64,000 nucleotides of DNA from Deltaproteobacteria bacterium. GTDB lineage: Bacteria > Desulfobacterota > Binatia > DP-6. The translations under genes and the position numbers were made by a program. Positions 46,578-56,223 of the stretch are shown here, one piece after another. The DNA lies in NCBI GenBank assembly GCA_005879795.1, contig VBKJ01000131.1, positions 1 to 64,000 on the forward strand, written 5' to 3'. The notes under the pieces were generated by a model. That model was not told the origin of the DNA. It saw only the letters and a program-made list of their open reading frames with translations, and ran no database searches. How positions within the stretch are numbered: the stretch's first letter is position 1; the number at the start of each line of letters is the position of its first letter.

Positions 46578-48362
46578 CTAGGGCGCGGCCTTCCGCGCCC
46601 GGACGCTGTCCGCGGCCACGTCCGCCCCGCCCTCCAGCGCCTCCACGTCGCGGAACTGGAGCTCGTAGAGCTTGCGGTACTCGGCGCCGCGGGCGAGGAG
46701 CTCGTCGTGCGTGCCGCTCTCGACGATCTCGCCGCGCACGACCACGACGATCCGGTCGGCGCGCCGCACGGTGGAGAGGCGGTGCGCGACCACCAGCGTC
46801 GTCCGGTTCGCCATCAGGCGCTCGAGCGCCTCCTGCACCAGGCCCTCGGACTCCGTGTCGAGCGCGGAGGTCGCCTCGTCGAGGATCAGGATGGGCGCGT
46901 TCTTGAGCAGCGCGCGCGCGATCGCGAGCCGCTGCCGCTGACCGCCCGAGAGCCGCACGCCGAGGTCGCCGATCCCGGTCTCGTAGCCGCGCGACATCTC
47001 GACGATGAAGTCGTGCGCGTTCGCGGCGCGCGCCGCGGCGACGATCTCGTCCATGGAGCGGTTGGAATCGCCGTAGGCGATGTTGTTGCGCACGCTGTCG
47101 TTGAAGAGGAACGTGAACTGGGTCACCACCGCGATGTGCGTGCGCAGGCTCGCGAGGGTCAGGTCGCGGATGTCGGTGCCGTCGATCGTGATGCGGCCCG
47201 CGGTCACGTCGTAGAAGCGCGGGATCAGATCGGCGAGCGTGCTCTTCCCGCCCCCGCTCATGCCGACCAGCGCCACCACCTGCCCGACCGGGATGCGGAG
47301 GTTGATGTCGCGCAGCACGGGCTCGCCGGGATCGTAGGCGAAGCTGACGGCGTGGAACTCGATCGCCGCGCGCACGCCGCGGAGGGCGACCGCGCCCGGC
47401 CGGTCGACGACCTGCGGCGCCGTGTCGAGCAGCTCGAAGACGCGTTCGGCACCGGCCAGGCCCTGCTGGATGGTGTTGTTGGTGCGCACCAGCTTCTTGA
47501 ACGGCTCGTAGAGGAGGAAGAGCGCGATGATGAAGGCCATGAAGGAGCCCTGCGTGCGCGCGCCGGAGATGACGCTGCTGCCCCCGTACCAGATGATGCC
47601 CGCGACCGCGATGCCGGCCAGCATCTCGGTGATCGGCAGCGCGCGCAGCACGCTGGTTCGCATGTAGATGCGGAGGAGCCGCTCGTTGTGCTCGTCGAAG
47701 CGCCGCTGCTCGTAGCCTTCCTGACCGAAGGCCTTGACGACCCGGTTGCCCTGCACGTTCTCGTGCAGCAGCGCATTCAGCCGGCCGATGCCGTCCTGCA
47801 TGCGGCGAGTCGTCTGGCGGAGCTGGAGGGAGAGGTAGCGGATCGGGAGCGCCGCCGCCGGGAAGAGGCAGATGGCGAGCAGGGCGAGCACCCAGTCGAG
47901 GTAGAAGGCGGTGACCGTGAGCCCGAGTAGGGTGGGGAATTCCTGGAAGATCGAGGTGACGGCGTCGGTCACCGCGCCGCGCACGATTCCCACGTCGGAG
48001 ATCACCCGCGAGACGATCTGCCCCGCCCGGCGGCGGTTGAAGAAGGCCAGGTCGAGGCGCTGGATGTGCGCGGTGAGCTCGTTGCGCAGGTCGGTCACCA
48101 CGCGCTGCCCGACCCAGTCGTTCAGATAGCCGCCGACGAAGTCGAGCCCGCCGCGCAGGAAGGCCGCCCCGAGCACCAGGAGCACCACCAGCGGCAGCGC
48201 CTCGGGGTGCTGCTGGTGGAAGACCTGATCGAAGGTGAACCTGGCGAGGAACGGGACGCTGGTCTCCACGGCGCTGCGGGAGAGCATGCAGGCCACGGCC
48301 AGCACGAAGCGCGGCCAGAGGTAGGGCCGGAGGTAGGAGAGCAGGCGCCGGTACTGCCTCAT
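46578..48362 (-). CDS. msbA: Lipid A export ABC transporter MsbA
   Basis: A 594-residue half-transporter. Six transmembrane helices span about residues 1-310, including [20 protein letters not shown] at the coupling region. The ATPase has Walker [20 protein letters not shown]-loop [18 protein letters not shown], signature [18 protein letters not shown], Walker [13 protein letters not shown] and the H-loop VVAHRLST. It flips core-lipid A across the inner membrane. ATG 48362 overlaps the lpxB stop as ATGA. Confidence 0.94.
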
Positions 48363-49543
48363 CCCCGGCAGCCCTCCAGCATCTCGCGCGCGATCGCGGC
48401 CGCGCGTCCCGCCGCGCCGCCGCGGCCGAGCCGCCGCCGCACCTCGCGCAGCTCCTCGATCATCGCCGCGTGGCGCGCCGGATCGTCGAGCAGGGCGCGC
48501 GCCGCCGCGGCGATGCGCGGGCCCGTCGCCTGCCGCTGCAGCAGCTCCGGCACGACCTCGCGCCCGGCCACGATGTTCGGCATGCCGATGTACCTGACGC
48601 CACGCACGAGGAGGCGGCCGAGAACGTAGCTGAGCGGCCCGAGCCGGTACACGATCACCATCGGGCGCTCGAGCAGCGCGCACTCGAGCGTCGCCGTGCC
48701 CGAGCTGACGAGCGCCAGGTCCGAGGCCCCGATGAGGTTGTAGGTGTCGTCCTCGATCACCTTGACGTCCAGGCCGGCGGCGCGGACCCGGCGGCGGACC
48801 TCGTCCGCGGGCAGCGTGTGGGCGAGGGCGAGCGGGAACTGGAGCCGACCGTCCCGACCCAGAGTGCGCACGGCGTCCAGCAGCGGCGGCAGGAGATAGT
48901 CGATCTCGGAGAGCCGGCTGCCGGGCAGGAGGAGCACGGTCGGCCGCGCGGGGTCGAGCCCGTGCGCGCCGAGCGTCTCCGCGCGCCCGCGCGTCACCCG
49001 CACGCGGTCGAGGAGCGGATGGCCGACGAACTCGACCCCCGGCAGCCGCGGGGCGTAGAGCGCCGGCTCGAAGGGGAAAACGACCGCCAGCCGGTCCACG
49101 CGGCGCGCGATCTTGCGCACGCGGCCGCGGCGCCAGGCCCACACCTGCGGCCCGATGTAGTAGAGGACGGGCACCCCCGCGCGCTTGGCGACGTGCGCCA
49201 GGCGGAGGTTGAACTCGGGGAAGTCGATCAGCACGCACAGGTCCGGCGGGTCCGCGCGCAGGCGGCGCGCGAGCGTGCGGTAAGCATGCCAGAGAGCGCG
49301 CAGCCGTCCGGTCGCCTCGAGCCCCATGGTCGCCACCTGCCCCACGTCGGCGACCGTCACCATGCCCGCCTCGCGCAGCCGCTCCCCGCCCACGCCGAAC
49401 ACCTCGAGGGCGGGAACCGAGGCGCGCAGCGCGCGCACCAGGTCCGCGCCGTGGAGGTCGCCCGAGGCCTCGCCAGCCACCAGGAGGAGCCGGCGCGGAC
49501 GCGCGGGAGCGCGCCAGGCGCGGGAGGCGCCGCCGTCCGACAT
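48359..49543 (-). CDS. lpxB: Lipid-A-disaccharide synthase
   Basis: A 394-residue GT19. RRLLLVAGEASGDLHGADLV (GEASGD) near the N-terminus, VLIDFPEFNLRLAHVAKRAG, PVLYYIGPQVWAWRRGRVRK and LLPGSRLSEIDYLLPPLLDA. The C-terminal LVSSGTATLECALLERPMVI and IGMPNIVAGREVVPELLQ complete the family signature. It condenses UDP-diacyl-GlcN with lipid X. The start is ATG 49543, two bases after the Gfo/Idh gene stop. Confidence 0.96.
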   Translation of the reverse strand: MSDGGASRAWRAPARPRRLLLVAGEASGDLHGADLVRALRASVPALEVFGVGGERLREAGMVTVADVGQVATMGLEATGRLRALWHAYRTLARRLRADPPDLCVLIDFPEFNLRLAHVAKRAGVPVLYYIGPQVWAWRRGRVRKIARRVDRLAVVFPFEPALYAPRLPGVEFVGHPLLDRVRVTRGRAETLGAHGLDPARPTVLLLPGSRLSEIDYLLPPLLDAVRTLGRDGRLQFPLALAHTLPADEVRRRVRAAGLDVKVIEDDTYNLIGASDLALVSSGTATLECALLERPMVIVYRLGPLSYVLGRLLVRGVRYIGMPNIVAGREVVPELLQRQATGPRIAAAARALLDDPARHAAMIEELREVRRRLGRGGAAGRAAAIAREMLEGCRG

Positions 49544-49545
49544 GG

Positions 49546-50505
49546 CTAGGAGGCCGACGCCGCCTGCACTGCGCGCACCTCGGTCTCGAGGCTCTCGCGG
49601 ATCACGTGCGCGACCTCGAGCGCGCGCAGCCCGTCCCAGCCGCTCACCGCCGGCGCCTCGCGCGCGCGCACGGCGCGCAGGAAGGCGTCGACCTCGGCCT
49701 CGAGCGCGTCGCCCTCCGGCACCTCGCGCTCCTCGAGGGTGAGCGCCGCCTGGCCGTCGGCGTCCGGCTCGCGCCGGCAGATGCGCACCCGCCGCTCGCC
49801 GTAGTCGACCGCCAGGTAGGCGTCGGCCTGGAAGATGCGGATCTTTCGCTCCCGCTTCATGGAGACGCGGCTCGCGGTTACGTTGGCGATGCAGCCGTTG
49901 GCGAAGCGGAGCCGCGCGTTGGCGATGTCGACGCAGTTGGTGAGTACCGGGACGCCCACCGCCTCGACCGAGCGGAGCGCCGACGGCACCATGGAGAGGA
50001 TCACGTCGAGGTCGTGGATCATCAGGTCGAGCACGACGTCGACGTCCGTGCCGCGCTCGGTGAAGGGCGCGAGGCGGTGGCACTCGATGAAGCGCGGCTG
50101 GGTCACCAGCCCCTCGAGCGCGAGCACCGCGGGGTTGAAGCGCTCGAGGTGGCCCACCTGGAAGACGCGCGCGCCGCGCACGGCGAGCTCGACCAGCGCC
50201 TTCGCCTCCTCGACCGTGGTGGTGACCGGCTTCTCGACCAGCACGTCGATGCCCGCCTCGAGGAGATCGCGCGCCACCTCGAAGTGCTGCTGGGTGGGGA
50301 CCGCGACGCTCGCGCAGTCGACCCGTCCCGCGAGCGCGCGGTGATCGGTGAGCGCCTCCGCGCCGAGCGCGGCCGCGACCTCGCGTGCGCGCCCGGGATC
50401 CACGTCGACCACGCCGACCAGCTCGGCCCCCGGGTGCGCGGCGTACTTCTCGGCGTGGAAGCGGCCCAGGTACCCCACGCCCACCACCGCGGTGCGGAGC
50501 CTCAT
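49546..50505 (-). CDS. Gfo/Idh/MocA family oxidoreductase (GnnA-like context)
   Basis: A 319-residue NAD(P)-dependent oxidoreductase. The Rossmann motif is [20 protein letters not shown] and the catalytic EKP is in DVLVEKPVTTTVEEAKALVE. Then follow GHLERFNPAVLALEGL and DLMIHDLDVILSMV with the conserved His. Position between lpxI and lpxB is like GnnA, which with the aminotransferase GnnB converts UDP-GlcNAc to its 3-amino analogue for amide-linked lipid A. No GnnB-like gene is present here, so the role is open. Overlaps lpxI by 4 nt. Confidence 0.85.
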   Translation of the reverse strand: MRLRTAVVGVGYLGRFHAEKYAAHPGAELVGVVDVDPGRAREVAAALGAEALTDHRALAGRVDCASVAVPTQQHFEVARDLLEAGIDVLVEKPVTTTVEEAKALVELAVRGARVFQVGHLERFNPAVLALEGLVTQPRFIECHRLAPFTERGTDVDVVLDLMIHDLDVILSMVPSALRSVEAVGVPVLTNCVDIANARLRFANGCIANVTASRVSMKRERKIRIFQADAYLAVDYGERRVRICRREPDADGQAALTLEEREVPEGDALEAEVDAFLRAVRAREAPAVSGWDGLRALEVAHVIRESLETEVRAVQAASAS

Positions 50506-51329
50506 CGATCGACCTCCCTCCCGTCGACCGCGACCACGGCGATGTCGACCCGATCGGCGAGCGTGACCAGCTCGGCGCGGTCGAGCGTGACCGTCCTGCC
50601 CGCCTCGATGGCGAGCACCCGCCCCTTTGCCTGCGCGAGCGCCGCCACCGTGCCGGGCCCCACCGCCGGGAGATCGAAGCGGGTGTCCTGCGTCGGCTTG
50701 CACACCTTGACGAGGACGATGTCGCCGCCCGCGAGCTGGCCGGCGCGGCGGATAGTCGCATCCGTGCCCTCGATGCCCTCGACGGCGATCACGGCGCCCC
50801 CGCGCACCACGACGCTCTGCCCGATGTCGAACTGCCCGATCACCTTGGCCGCGCGGAAGCCGAAGCGGATGTCGCTCCACTCTTCCGGGCTCGGCCGCCG
50901 GGCGCTGAGCACGCCCGCGCTCGGCACGATCTCCTGCAGATACAACGTCGACTCGACCACCGCGATCCCCTCCGACTCGAGCTCGCTCGCCACCGCGCGC
51001 AGCACCAGGTCGTCGCGCAGTTTGCCGACGCGCGCAATGACCGCCAGGGCACGGGCGTCGGGCCGGAACTCGCGGAAGAGCCGGGGCTTGGCGATGCCGC
51101 CGACCATGACCGCGCGCCGCACCCCGGCGCGCTTGAGCGCGTCGATCATGGCCGCGAGCTCGCCGGGGTAGAGCCAGCTGATGCCGGCCACGACCCGGTC
51201 GAGCTCGGGGTCGGTCTCGCCCCGGTGCGCGACCGCGAACACCTCGACGCCGCGGCGGCGCGCCGTCTCCGCGAACAGGACCGGGAAGCGACCGCTCCCG
51301 GCGATGAGGCCGATGCGCTCCCCGCTCAC
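50502..51329 (-). CDS. lpxI: UDP-2,3-diacylglucosamine pyrophosphatase LpxI
   Basis: A 275-residue DUF1009/LpxI protein. [55 protein letters not shown], and [20 protein letters not shown] are characteristic. [20 protein letters not shown] is the most conserved C-terminal block. It hydrolyses UDP-2,3-diacyl-GlcN to lipid X, replacing LpxH in many alphaproteobacteria and other lineages. GTG 51329 overlaps the lpxA stop as GTGA. Confidence 0.94.
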
Positions 51330-52435
51330 CGGCACACACCCCGCCGCGAGGCGGCGACGAAGTCGACGAGCCGCGCCACCTCGGGCACCTGACCGAACGC
51401 CGCGCGCGCGCGCGCGAGCGCCTCGCGCCGGCCGCCGCCCTGGAAGAGGACCCGGTAGGCGCGCTTGAGCGCCGTGATCGCCCCGGCGGCAAAGCCGCGC
51501 CGACGGAGCCCCACCAGGTTGAGACCGCGCAGCCGGGCCCGGTCGCCCGCCACCATGCAGAAGGGCGGCACGTCCATCGACACCATCGCCCCGGCGGCGC
51601 ACAGGGCCGACTCGCCGATGCGCACGTGCTGGTGCACGCCCGCGAGGCCGCCCACGATCGCGTAGTCCTGGGCCTCGACGTGCCCGCCGAGGGCCGCGCC
51701 GTTGGCCAGGATCACCCCGTCGCCGACCCGGCAGTCGTGGGCCACGTGCGCGGAGACCATGAGGAGGCAGCGGTTCCCGATCCGGGTCCGCATGCCGCCG
51801 CCCGCGGTGCCGGGGTTGATGGACGCGAACTCGCGCACGATGTTCCCGTCCCCCATCTCGAGCGTGCTCGGCTCGCCGTGGTACTTGAGATCCTGCGGGG
51901 GCGCCCCCACGCTCGCGAACTGGAAGATGCGGCAGCCGGTGCCGATCGTGGTGCGCCCGCTCACCACCGCGTGCGGCCCGACCCACGAGTCGCGCCCCAC
52001 GCGCACGTGCGGCCCGACCACGGCGTAGGCCTCCACCGTGACCCCCGTGTCCAGCTCGGCGCCGCGCGCCACCACGGCCGTCGGATGGACGCGCGCGCCC
52101 GCCGGGGGCGCCGCCGCGAACTCGACCTCCGCCACCAGCGCCGGCCCCGCCGTCGCGACCCCGCGCAGCCGCCAGGGCGGCCCGGGGGCGGCGCAGGTCA
52201 CCTCGAGCCGGAGCGTGTCGCCGGGCAGCACCGGGCGGCGAAAGCGCGCCTTGTCGACCGCGACCAGACGCAGGTCCTCGTCCTCGGCGAGCCGGGAGCC
52301 GAGCTGGACCAGGGCCTCGCACAGCATGACCCCGGGCAGGAGGGGTGCGCCGGGAAAATGCCCCGCGAAGTACGGCTCGTTGGCGCTCACGCGCTTCATG
52401 CCGACCGCGCGCCTCCCCGGCTCGACCTCGAGCAC
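51326..52435 (-). CDS. lpxA: Fusion of FabZ-type 3-hydroxyacyl-ACP dehydratase and LpxA acyltransferase
   Basis: A single frame. Residues 1-112 from the GTG at 52435 are Fab[21 protein letters not shown] then CEALVQLGS, with catalytic H26 and E40 both kept, and [20 protein letters not shown]. From residue ~114 an LpxA left-handed beta-helix follows ([20 protein letters not shown]). [20 protein letters not shown] contains the catalytic His (H233), and [10 protein letters not shown] and a C-terminal helical region complete it. Conserved FabZ sequence FPYVLVDRV continues upstream of the GTG to a possible ATC start at 52507, 9 nt after AAGGAG. The real protein is probably 393 residues. Confidence 0.9.
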
Positions 52436-52513
52436 CCGGTCGACCAGGACGTAGGGGAACGCCCGCGGCCCGCTCGCGCCTCGCTCGGGCTCGTCAGTGT
52501 CAGTGATGGAACG

Positions 52514-53101
52514 CTACTCCTTGTCCAGGCTCCGCTTCGACGCCTCCTTGTGGGCCGAGGCGTTGTGGAGCTTCACGATCTCGTCGGTCACATCCACCGT
52601 CTTGTCGTTGTAGAGGAGCGCGCCGCTGGAGGCCTCGAGCACGAGCGTGTAGCCGTGCTTCTCGCCGTAGTCACGCACCAGCCCGTAGAGCTCCTCGACG
52701 ATGCTCTTGGTGAGCTCGGCATCGGTCTCCTTGAGTTCGCGCTGGAAGTCCTCGTACTTGCGCTTGAACTCGAGGCCGCGGCTCTCGAGGTCCTTCTCCA
52801 GGTTGCGCCGCTCCTCCTCCTTGAGCACGGTCGCCTTGCGCTCGTAGTCCCCCTTCAGGCGGTCCAAGTCGTCGCGCTGCTTCTTGAGCTGGTTCTGCGA
52901 GCGCTCGAACTTCGCCTTCACCTGCTCCTTCGCCCGCTTGCCGGCATCGCATTCGTTGAGCGCCCGCTGCATGTCGATCACGGCGATCTTCTGCTCCGCG
53001 GCCGCCGGCCGCGCCGCCCCGAGCCCGACCACGATCGCCGCGAGCCCGAGCGCCACGCGGGCCCTCCGGCCGCTCTTGCCTCCGGTGACCCGATCTCGCA
53101 T
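52514..53101 (-). CDS. skp: OmpH/Skp family periplasmic chaperone
   Basis: A 195-residue secreted protein. The signal peptide (about residues 11-35, ARVALGLAAIVVGLGAARPA, cleavage AAA-EQ) precedes KIAVIDMQRALNECDAGKRA. A long charged coiled coil follows (LKKQRDDLDRLKGDYERKAT, NLEKDLESRGLEFKRKYED). The C-terminal VLEASSGALLYNDKTVDVTD matches OmpH. It chaperones unfolded outer-membrane proteins to BamA, the gene upstream. Its stop TAG is in the same frame as the downstream FabZ-LpxA gene. Confidence 0.93.
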   Translation of the reverse strand: MRDRVTGGKSGRRARVALGLAAIVVGLGAARPAAAEQKIAVIDMQRALNECDAGKRAKEQVKAKFERSQNQLKKQRDDLDRLKGDYERKATVLKEEERRNLEKDLESRGLEFKRKYEDFQRELKETDAELTKSIVEELYGLVRDYGEKHGYTLVLEASSGALLYNDKTVDVTDEIVKLHNASAHKEASKRSLDKE

Positions 53102-53125: not shown

Positions 53126-55483
53126 TCAGTACTGGAACGGCGCCCCGAACGAGAACAGCACGAGGCTCTTCTGATCGTGGGGCTTGGTGTGGAACGGCTT
53201 GCCGAGCTCGATGCGCAGCGGGCCGATGGGCGACAGCCAGCGCACCCCGGCCCCGGCCGAGAAGCGGGTCTCGTCGAGGGTGAAGCCCTCCTCCGCGCTG
53301 TAGGCGTTGCCGGCGTCGACGAACAGCACGCCCTTCAACCCGATGCCCTGCACGATCGGGAAGATGACCTCGTTGTTGACGATCCCCTCCTCGCTGCCGC
53401 CGACCGGCGTGGTCGAGATGACGCGCCCGAAGATGTCCTTGCGCGCCTCGCGCGGCCCGAGGGTGCGCGTCTTGAAGCCGCGGATCGTATCGATCCCCCC
53501 CGGGAAGTAGCGCTCGAAGAGCGGCAGCTCGCCGCCGTTGACGCCGCCCTCGCCCATGAAGCCGTAGCCCAGCCTGCCGCCGAAGGAGTACGTGAAGTCG
53601 CCGAGCGCCTTCGAGCGCCAGAAGGTGTGGTACCAGCGCTCGCGCGCCTCGGCCTTCATGAAGCGCTCGCCGCCGAGACCGGCGACCTCCATGGAGACGT
53701 CCTGCAGGGAGCCCGCGGTTGGGTCGAAGGCGTGGTTCAGCGTGTTGCGCGACACGCGGGGCGTCACGCTGCTGATCAGGCTCGTGCCCTCCTCGACCCG
53801 GATCGAGCGCGTGGCGTCGAGGCCGAGGCCGCTGATCTTGGCCGACTCGATGCGGTAGTCGCTGCCGACGCGCACCTCCTCGAGGGGCAGGCCCCAGAGC
53901 GAGGTGTAACCCCAGGCCGTGACCGGGTAGGTGAGCTGGGTGCCGAAGCCGGTGCCGCTGCGGTCGAAGTCGTCGAAGCGAAGCTTCCAGCTGAAGGCGC
54001 TCGCCCCCACGGTGAGCGGCGTGTCGCGGAAGTAGGGCTCGGTGAAGGAGAGGACGACGTTGCGCCGGATCGAGCCGATGTCGCCGGAGAGCTCGAGCCG
54101 CTGGCCCCGCCCGAAGAGGTTGTTCTCGACGATGCGCGCGTTGAAGAGGAGCTGGTCGGCCGAGCTGAAGCCGGCGCCGGCGCTGAAGGCGCCGGTCTGG
54201 GCCTCCTTCACGTCCACCACCACCTGCATGCGGTCTTCCTCGGCGGCGCGCCGGGTCGTGATGTTGACGCTCTGGAAGAAGCCGAGGCGCTGCAGCGCCT
54301 CGCGGCTCTTGCGCAGCTTGCTCGCCGAGAACAGCTCCTGCTCCTGGAGGCGCATCTCGCGGCGGATCACCTTGTCGCGCGTCTTGGTGTTGCCGGTCAC
54401 CTCGATGCGGTCCACCACCACCGGCTTGCCGCGCTCGACCTTGTAGGTGATGTCGACCCGCTTCTCCTCGGGGCGCATCTCGGTCTCGGGCTCGACGCTG
54501 GCGAAGGCGTAGCCGTCCTCGGAGAGCCGCTCGGTCAGCTTCTGCGTGTCCTCGCGCAGCGCGCTCGCCTTGAAGACCTCGCCGGGGGTGATCTGCAGCC
54601 CCTGGAGGAGCAGCTTCGTGTCGGTGGGCGTGTTCTCACCCGCCACCGCCACCTCGCCGACCTGGTACTGGTCGCCCTCGTCGATCTTGACGGTGATGTG
54701 GAGGCCGTCGTCGCGGCGCTCGACGCGCGGCTCGTCGACGCGCACCGTGACGTAGCCGTGGTCGTAGTACCAGGCCGTCAGCCGCTCGACGTCGGTGCGC
54801 AGCACCTCCTTGTTGAGCACGCCGGCGCCCGTGATGAAGCCGAGGAGCCACTTCTCCCGCGTCTGCATGACGCCCCGGAGCTTGCGGGGCGAGAAGGCCT
54901 TGTTGCCCTCGAAGGCGACCTCGACGACCTTGACCGGCTCGTGCTCCTCGACCTTGTAGAGGACGTCGACCTCGTTCTCGCCGACCGGCTCGGTCGAGTA
55001 GGTGAGCGTGGCGTCGAGATAGCCCTTCTCGACGTAGAGCTTCTTCCCGGCCTCGAGGCCCTGGCGCGCCTTCTCGGGGTCGAGGATGGCATGGGCACGG
55101 ATCTTGAGCGCGGCCTCGAGCTCCTCGCGCTTCACCTTCTTGTTGCCCTCGATCCGGACGCTGCGTACGAGGGGCCGCTCCTTCACCCGGAAGACGACCT
55201 CGACCCGGTTCTCGCCCACCCGCGTGACGTCCGCATCCACCTGGTCGAAGAAGCCCATCTCGTAGACGGAGCGGATGTCCCGATCGATGGTGTCCTGGTC
55301 GAAGGGCTGGCCCGGCTGCGAGCGCAGATGGACCCGGATGGCGTCCTCCTCGACGCGCAGGTTGCCGGCGACCCCGACGCGCGCGATCGAGGGCTCGCCC
55401 TGCGCGCCGACCGGTACCTCCCCGGCGACCAGCGCCAGCGCCGCCCCGAGCGCGACCCACCGCCTGCGACCGTGCCTCGCCAT
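53126..55483 (-). CDS. bamA: Outer membrane assembly factor BamA
   Basis: A 785-residue Omp85 protein. The signal peptide is MARHGRRRWVALGAALALVA... to GAQG-EP. Five POTRA domains follow (for example VRSVRIEGNKKVKREELEAA; VKVVEVAFEGNKAFSPRKLR; VVVDRIEVTGNTKTRDKVIR). The C-terminal 16-strand barrel has the VRGF-type lid-lock motif IDTIRGFKTRTLGPREARKD. It ends with an aromatic beta-signal (LVLFSFGAPFQY). I use ATG 55483 with AGAAGG 6 nt upstream. A GTG at 55498 overlapping the lolD stop is an alternative. Confidence 0.95.
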   Translation of the reverse strand: MARHGRRRWVALGAALALVAGEVPVGAQGEPSIARVGVAGNLRVEEDAIRVHLRSQPGQPFDQDTIDRDIRSVYEMGFFDQVDADVTRVGENRVEVVFRVKERPLVRSVRIEGNKKVKREELEAALKIRAHAILDPEKARQGLEAGKKLYVEKGYLDATLTYSTEPVGENEVDVLYKVEEHEPVKVVEVAFEGNKAFSPRKLRGVMQTREKWLLGFITGAGVLNKEVLRTDVERLTAWYYDHGYVTVRVDEPRVERRDDGLHITVKIDEGDQYQVGEVAVAGENTPTDTKLLLQGLQITPGEVFKASALREDTQKLTERLSEDGYAFASVEPETEMRPEEKRVDITYKVERGKPVVVDRIEVTGNTKTRDKVIRREMRLQEQELFSASKLRKSREALQRLGFFQSVNITTRRAAEEDRMQVVVDVKEAQTGAFSAGAGFSSADQLLFNARIVENNLFGRGQRLELSGDIGSIRRNVVLSFTEPYFRDTPLTVGASAFSWKLRFDDFDRSGTGFGTQLTYPVTAWGYTSLWGLPLEEVRVGSDYRIESAKISGLGLDATRSIRVEEGTSLISSVTPRVSRNTLNHAFDPTAGSLQDVSMEVAGLGGERFMKAEARERWYHTFWRSKALGDFTYSFGGRLGYGFMGEGGVNGGELPLFERYFPGGIDTIRGFKTRTLGPREARKDIFGRVISTTPVGGSEEGIVNNEVIFPIVQGIGLKGVLFVDAGNAYSAEEGFTLDETRFSAGAGVRWLSPIGPLRIELGKPFHTKPHDQKSLVLFSFGAPFQY

Positions 55484-55494
55484 CCGGGGCCTTC

Positions 55495-56223
55495 TCACGA
55501 CGTCATGCCGTGGGCCCGCCCGCGCGGCCCCGAGCCCACCTCGTGGAGCGCACCACCCGCCAGGCGGAGCGTCCGCCCCATCGCCGCCGCCAGGCGGTCG
55601 TTGTGGGTGGCAACCACGAGCGCCGCGCCGTGCTCCTGGTTGAGCTCGAGCATGAGCTGCTGGACGTCCTCGCCGGTGGCCGGGTCCAGGTTGCCGGTCG
55701 GCTCGTCGGCGAGGACGAGCCGCGGGCGCAGGACGAGGGCGCGCGCCACCGCCACGCGCTGCTGCTCGCCCCCGGAGAGCTGCCCGGGCCGGTGCGCGAG
55801 CCGCTCCCGGAGCCCGACCCGCTCGAGCAGCTCGGTCGCGCGCGCCCGGGTGGCCGCGTACGGCCGGCGGGCGATCAGGCTCGGCAGCATGACATTCTCG
55901 AGCGCCGTGAAGTCGCCCAGCAGGTGGTGGAACTGGAAGACGAAGCCGATCTCGCGGTTGCGGAAGACGGCCAGCTCGGCCTCCGAGCGCGCGAACACGT
56001 CCACGCCCTCGAAGAGGATGCGGCCCCCGGTCGGCTGATCGAGCGCCCCGAGGAGGTGGAGGAGCGTCGACTTGCCCACCCCGGACTCGCCGACGATGGC
56101 GATCCGCTCGCCGGCCTCGACCTCCACGTCGAGCCCGGTGAGAACCTGCACGATCGACGGGCCGTCCACGTAGCGCTTGTCGAGCTGAACCGCCTGCACG
56201 AGCGGGGGGAGCTGGCCGGGCAT
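55495..56223 (-). CDS. lolD: Lipoprotein-releasing ABC transporter ATP-binding protein LolD
   Basis: A 242-residue ABC ATPase. Walker A is IVGESGVGKSTLLHLLGALD, Q-loop FQFHHLLGDFTALENVMLPS, signature GQLSGGEQQRVAVARALVLR, and Walker B RLVLADEPTGNLDPATG. The FHHLL and ENVMLP pattern and the adjacent LolC/E-type permease identify LolD over general MacB-like ATPases. The system extracts mature lipoproteins from the inner membrane. Start 56223, 6 nt after the permease stop. Confidence 0.93.
   Translation of the reverse strand: MPGQLPPLVQAVQLDKRYVDGPSIVQVLTGLDVEVEAGERIAIVGESGVGKSTLLHLLGALDQPTGGRILFEGVDVFARSEAELAVFRNREIGFVFQFHHLLGDFTALENVMLPSLIARRPYAATRARATELLERVGLRERLAHRPGQLSGGEQQRVAVARALVLRPRLVLADEPTGNLDPATGEDVQQLMLELNQEHGAALVVATHNDRLAAAMGRTLRLAGGALHEVGSGPRGRAHGMTS

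Follow-up and report, generated by a model that had tools for sequence, protein, structure and literature searches.

Here, we describe a minus-strand gene in a 64,000-nucleotide window (the whole stretch of DNA analysed) from an uncultured bacterium of the phylum Binatota, in which fabZ and lpxA are joined in one reading frame. In transcription order, the surrounding operon runs from a bamA-like gene through skp, the fabZ-lpxA fusion, lpxI, a Gfo/Idh oxidoreductase gene and lpxB to an msbA-like gene, with the following features:

53126-55498, minus strand: bamA-type outer-membrane assembly gene, named by sequence and position alone
52514-53101, minus strand: skp/ompH, upstream of the fusion; its TAG stop (52516-52514) lies in frame just ahead of the fusion
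52517-52522, minus strand: Shine-Dalgarno-like AAGGAG, within the last skp codons, 9 nt before the ATC
52505-52507, minus strand: probable start codon ATC, third codon past the skp stop
51326-52507, minus strand: fabZ-lpxA fusion frame, 393 aa, TGA stop at 51328-51326
52112-52468, minus strand: FabZ hot-dog domain, residues 14-132 (Pfam, NCBIfam, alignment, AlphaFold)
52360-52358 and 52318-52316, minus strand: FabZ catalytic His50 and Glu64, respectively (alignment)
52097-52111, minus strand: linker of about 5-6 residues (A-P-P-A-G), model pLDDT about 90
51329-52096, minus strand: LpxA domain, residues 138-393, left-handed beta-helix and C-terminal helices (Pfam, NCBIfam, PDB matches)
51739-51737, minus strand: LpxA catalytic His257 (alignment)
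50502-51335, minus strand: lpxI (UDP-2,3-diacylglucosamine diphosphatase), overlapping the fusion end; full-length match of 147 bits, below the curated cut-off of 400
49546-50505, minus strand: Gfo/Idh/MocA oxidoreductase, nearest to UDP-GlcNAc 3-dehydrogenase (GnnA-like); 194 bits, below the curated cut-off of 450
48359-49561, minus strand: lpxB, lipid-A-disaccharide synthase (family scan)
46578-48362, minus strand: msbA-like ABC transporter, named from sequence alone

LpxC is encoded on contig C44 and LpxD on contig C83 of the same genome. The lpxD gene (C83, L136:5560-6591) lies outside the lipid A operon and shares its contig with fatty-acid synthesis genes resembling fabG and acpP. The Gfo/Idh oxidoreductase gene (49546-50505), between lpxI and lpxB, hints at a 2,3-diamino (GlcN3N) lipid A.

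The fusion occupies one frame of 393 codons plus TGA with zero internal stops, at the coordinates of the original prediction, which had given no strand. The profile search proposed there detects both domains, LpxA above and FabZ below the curated NCBIfam cut-offs. Pfam places a FabA-like domain (PF07977) at residues 20-107 (6e-18, 65 bits against a cut-off of 23), and Hexapep repeats and Acetyltransf_11 (residues 312-392, 2e-27) in the LpxA half. The NCBIfam LpxA models match residues 138-393 far above their cut-offs (TIGR01852, 313 vs 231 bits; NF003657, 335 vs 226 bits), and the FabZ models score 105-108 vs 113 bits (NF000582) and 101 vs 155 bits (TIGR01750). PDB sequence matches are to LpxA for the C-terminal part (4eqy, 2.7e-68) and to FabZ for the N-terminal part (6n3p, 1.9e-23). 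AlphaFold modelled the whole fusion, from 77 aligned sequences, with a mean pLDDT of 93.5 and only residues 1-14 poorly placed. The LpxA half of the model aligns with solved LpxA at Z 38 and rmsd 1.0-1.3 Å, with 254 residues aligned at about 1.1 Å. The FabZ half was searched alone, as the whole-model PDB search was filled by LpxA-like and other beta-helix chains; modelled alone (pLDDT 90.1), its best 30 PDB matches are all FabZ (Z 16.3-18.2), followed by FapR (15.5).

The same unbroken frame was found in 24 Binatota genomes, among 148 genomes of the class: all seven of family f1, all six of family f7 and 11 of family f6. A further f6 genome (G114) carries a partial fusion frame at a contig end, and in two more (G043 and G116) the fusion was unmatched at the threshold used. 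In the other families of the class fabZ and lpxA are separate; the two were adjacent in every case examined, and several such pairs share a reading frame, separated by one stop and a few codons. One open frame in family f2 (G142) suggested another fusion and was rejected, its fabZ and lpxA being in different frames. Linkers span about 5 to 28 residues across the fusions and are conserved in length inside family f1. Outside the class, the fusion was found on three Acidobacteria contigs (L064, L066 and L080), and 43 of 396 sampled Acidobacteriota genomes (about one in nine) have both domains within a single stop-free frame, with 21 further genomes of the sample having the span broken by at least one stop. 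A record titled Klebsiella pneumoniae (L037, CAMBZJ010000009.1) encodes the same fusion protein as G023; it appears to be a contig of the Binatota class and is probably a mislabelled record. The original prediction knew of no common FabZ-LpxA fusion, yet the fusion is widespread, being fixed in three Binatota families and recurring in Acidobacteriota; it does remain undescribed in the literature searched, which left most subscription papers outside. The FabZ-LpxA architecture is thus undescribed as far as searched and recurrent in two phyla, while LpxC-FabZ has already been described.

A tree of the concatenated FabZ and LpxA domains groups f1 with f7 in one clade (97/92) and sets f6 apart, but the AU test does not reject a single origin for f1, f6 and f7 (p 0.50). 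In the same tree, the three Acidobacteria fusions group together (99/89) within Acidobacteriota. Because the Acidobacteria fusions stand in a clade of their own and one origin for the Binatota families is unrejected, the fusion probably arose at least twice, with the Acidobacteriota event apparently separate. A quick tree of LpxA only requires four changes. In the LpxA tree, f1 and its relatives group together with L096, a record under the title Candidatus Binatus soli, and f1 is placed in Binatota because of this kinship.

The catalytic motifs that had been pointed out in the frame are in place: His50 of GHFPG and Glu64 of CEA correspond to E. coli FabZ His54 and Glu68, and His257 corresponds to E. 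coli LpxA His125 (of the E. coli reference sequences used for numbering, the LpxA one agrees with the 2jf2 alignment). FabZ His, Glu and Gln (His50, Glu64 and Gln68 here) are invariant across all fusions aligned. The LpxA catalytic residues His125, Asp126, His122 and His144 (E. coli numbering) are all found in the fusion, and the key LpxA His and Asp residues are kept in all fusions aligned. At E. coli His160, all f6 fused LpxA sequences (L021-L027, L121, L123 and L124) have Ala, where nearly all Binatota relatives compared have His. Comparisons inside family f1 give pN/pS values of 0.17-0.58 (FabZ) and 0.13-0.53 (LpxA), which are rough because third positions are extremely GC-rich; by this measure both domains are under purifying selection.

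The FabZ half varies between families in a non-catalytic feature, the N-terminal LPHR stretch. Nearly every separate FabZ in the alignment conserves this stretch; in the fusions it is absent in f1, partly lost in f7 and kept in f6. The f1 half also lacks an 8-residue loop. In H. pylori FabZ, the LPHR equivalents Leu21, Pro22 and His23 line the substrate tunnel (PMC2692856). Curated FabZ scores are 163-182 bits in f6 versus 99-109 bits in f1, and f6 and f7 fusions pass the cut-off of 113. With the stretch and loop lost and the score below the cut-off, the chain-length range or activity of the f1 FabZ half may be shifted.

A separate fabZ elsewhere in the genome, which the prediction had suggested looking for, was sought in the window's genome (99.6% complete), with none above or near the curated cut-off. 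The fusion is by far the best FabZ there (108 bits), followed by a FabZ-like gene on contig C142 (60 bits). Likewise, in all 24 Binatota genomes with the fusion no FabZ scores better than the fused one, and none of these genomes has a stand-alone FabZ over the curated cut-off. Since it is the only FabZ near that cut-off in the Binatota fusion genomes checked, the fused FabZ is probably their housekeeping dehydratase. A second FabZ-like gene, similar in score to the C142 homologue, occurs in each f1 and f7 genome searched, and no second FabZ-like match above 40 bits was found in several f6 fusion genomes. The C142 protein was rejected as a hidden housekeeping FabZ for its low score and specialised cluster. 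That cluster (L138:4381-9874) encodes, in order, KS, ketoreductase, ACP, KS, the FabZ-like protein and an LpxL-like acyltransferase; it looks like one for aryl-polyene or specialised fatty-acid synthesis, and a similar cluster is found in G001. The window's genome also has several MaoC-type dehydratases, which may serve as backup for FabZ. A second LpxA homologue on contig C46 (L134:5463-6269) adjoins ccmE and ccmF, scores above the LpxA cut-off and is 42% identical, with Asn at E. coli Asp126 and altered acyl-ruler residues. Most class genomes searched have an LpxA homologue of 36-46% identity.

No ATG, GTG or TTG occurs from the in-frame skp TAG up to the conserved FabZ stretch FPYVLVDR, leaving the ATC at 52507-52505, which coincides with the end coordinate first proposed, as the only usable initiator of the fusion. 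The homologous codon is ATC in G004 and G002, GTG in G001 and ATG in G005 and G006, the last two being of the same genus as G002, and AAGGAG is kept in G004, G002, G005 and G006. The homologous N-terminal peptides are of the same length, reading MTPHAEPRGPSPAFPY in G005 (ATG start) versus ITSQTEQRGPSPAFPY in G002. G003 has no clear start codon, and in all f6 and f7 fusions a standard start codon precedes the domain. Loci compared with the window codon (52505-52507, minus strand) were L007, L008, L009, L010 and L011. Because the codon at the same place is ATC, ATG or GTG in relatives, ATC is very probably a real initiator in three genera of f1 and no sequencing error. AUC mismatches the normal initiator anticodon at the third base. 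In a reconstituted system, weak pairing at the third base is selected against by IF3 and related factors (PMC10158994), so translation of the fusion may be low or IF3-sensitive. Read-through from skp, which is in the same frame with one TAG between, was rejected as a general explanation, the two genes being in different frames in G005. Many genomes have in-frame GTG codons within the LpxA part or just ahead of it; with positions that are not conserved, and none in the stretch examined of L018, an internal start giving a conserved stand-alone LpxA is unlikely.

The closest known arrangement is LpxC-FabZ of Bacteroidetes, Chlorobi and Verrucomicrobia (PRK13188; PMC3087551, PMC516016), likewise an in-frame fusion of neighbours that joins FabZ to a lipid A enzyme at the same branch point. 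There, FabZ is C-terminal to LpxC, the enzyme of the second, committed step, whereas here it is N-terminal to LpxA, the enzyme of the first step and the competitor of FabZ. PRK13188 matches the FabZ part of the fusion alone (model positions 331-456 of 464), with no N-terminal LpxC domain. The fusion has the hot-dog fold, catalytic His and Glu, and GHFPG in common with the separate FabZ of E. coli, P. aeruginosa and H. pylori, but in f1 it differs from these by the missing LPHR stretch and loop and by a C-terminal strand that runs almost directly into LpxA. With separate LpxA (E. coli 1LXA/2JF2, B. thailandensis 4EQY and P. aeruginosa 5DEM) it shares the full-length beta-helix, the C-terminal helices and His125/Asp126, differing by the added N-terminal FabZ domain and, near the acyl ruler, by Ala for E. 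coli Gly173 and Met for Gly176. The Acidobacteriota fusions (L064, L066, L080 and about 40 more) have the same domain order and a short linker but form a separate clade, and the three genomes checked each also have a stand-alone FabZ over the cut-off.

We consider it likely that the gene encodes a bifunctional FabZ-LpxA, formed by in-frame joining of neighbouring genes, that fixes a 1:1 ratio at the branch point of lipid A and phospholipid synthesis. The analysis shows the single frame, both folds by prediction, the catalytic residues, selection on both halves and the lack of another FabZ near the cut-off; both activities, the oligomer and the ratio-lock role are inferred. The N-terminal hot-dog domain would dehydrate 3-hydroxyacyl-ACP towards fatty acids and phospholipids, and the C-terminal LpxA would start lipid A by passing the 3-hydroxyacyl group of the same type of ACP thioester on to UDP-GlcNAc or to the 3-amino form of this sugar nucleotide. 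FabZ and LpxA act on the same substrate, 3-hydroxyacyl-ACP, to give different products (PMC3087551). The original prediction of co-location at this branch point is chemically right; since the two enzymes compete for one substrate and are not sequential, with no hand-on between them, a fixed ratio is likelier than channelling. The fusion would lock the FabZ:LpxA molar ratio at 1:1 with both active sites in one particle. LpxA is a trimer. As FabZ is a trimer of dimers (PMC2692856), the simplest closed particle, and probably the one formed, would be a FabZ hexamer capped by two LpxA trimers, one on each face. Flux control would then be left to later steps, for example LpxC, and to translation of the single message.

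A serious rival, which we nonetheless hold to be somewhat unlikely, is a neutral fusion in which the stop between adjacent genes was lost, with both enzymes unchanged and no regulatory difference; it shares both activities with the bifunctional enzyme proposed above and differs only on the ratio-lock role. Almost every relative examined has fabZ and lpxA side by side, often sharing a frame so that a single stop loss suffices, which fits such an origin, as do linkers varying from about 5 to 28 residues. Fission, however, would need little beyond one stop codon and a start, and the fusion is kept in all f1, all f7 and all f6 genomes with the locus found, across many genera and with at least two apparent origins. 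An assembly or sequencing artefact that erased a stop codon has a negligible probability: the assembly is fragmented (280 contigs) and probably metagenome-derived, but the same unbroken frame recurs in Acidobacteriota as well as in 24 Binatota genomes, and linker length is conserved within f1, which rules out an assembly error or frameshift and bears out the single polypeptide originally proposed.

The f1 FabZ half could instead have become a specialised, or for the most part structural, module for ACP docking, serving to feed LpxA or to tune chain length, with another hot-dog enzyme (the C142 FabZ-like or a MaoC-type protein) carrying out bulk dehydration. The missing LPHR, whose equivalents line the H. 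pylori FabZ tunnel (PMC2692856), points this way, along with the fall in curated FabZ score from f6 (163-182 bits) to f1 (99-109 bits) the second FabZ-like gene in every f1 and f7 genome searched, and the existence of MaoC-type genes. Nevertheless, f1 keeps the catalytic His, Glu and Gln without exception, and purifying selection acts on the domain; the C142 gene sits in a KS-KR-ACP-KS cluster of specialised type with an LpxL-like acyltransferase, and scores still lower; and several f6 fusion genomes have no second FabZ-like match above 40 bits, so that the fused one probably serves. We regard a docking role as decidedly improbable. Narrower than the bifunctional, ratio-fixing enzyme that we prefer is a version, itself rather doubtful, in which one particle, a FabZ hexamer capped by two LpxA trimers, holds the only housekeeping FabZ and the LpxA of the operon at a locked 1:1 ratio, at a level set by translation from the conserved non-standard AUC start.

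Bacteria must balance lipid A against phospholipid. Defects in lpxA or lpxC are suppressed by mutations in fabZ in E. coli and Klebsiella, as PMC12152623 summarises. A naturally fixed FabZ:LpxA ratio lets one ask whether the ratio matters and where control then sits, and at least two apparent origins with retention in many genera suggest that bacteria tolerate or favour the fusion. If confirmed, the ATC start would exemplify conserved AUC initiation in a presumably essential gene. Should that start also set the level of the 1:1 particle, initiation fidelity (IF3) would be a handle on the balance of lipid A to phospholipid.
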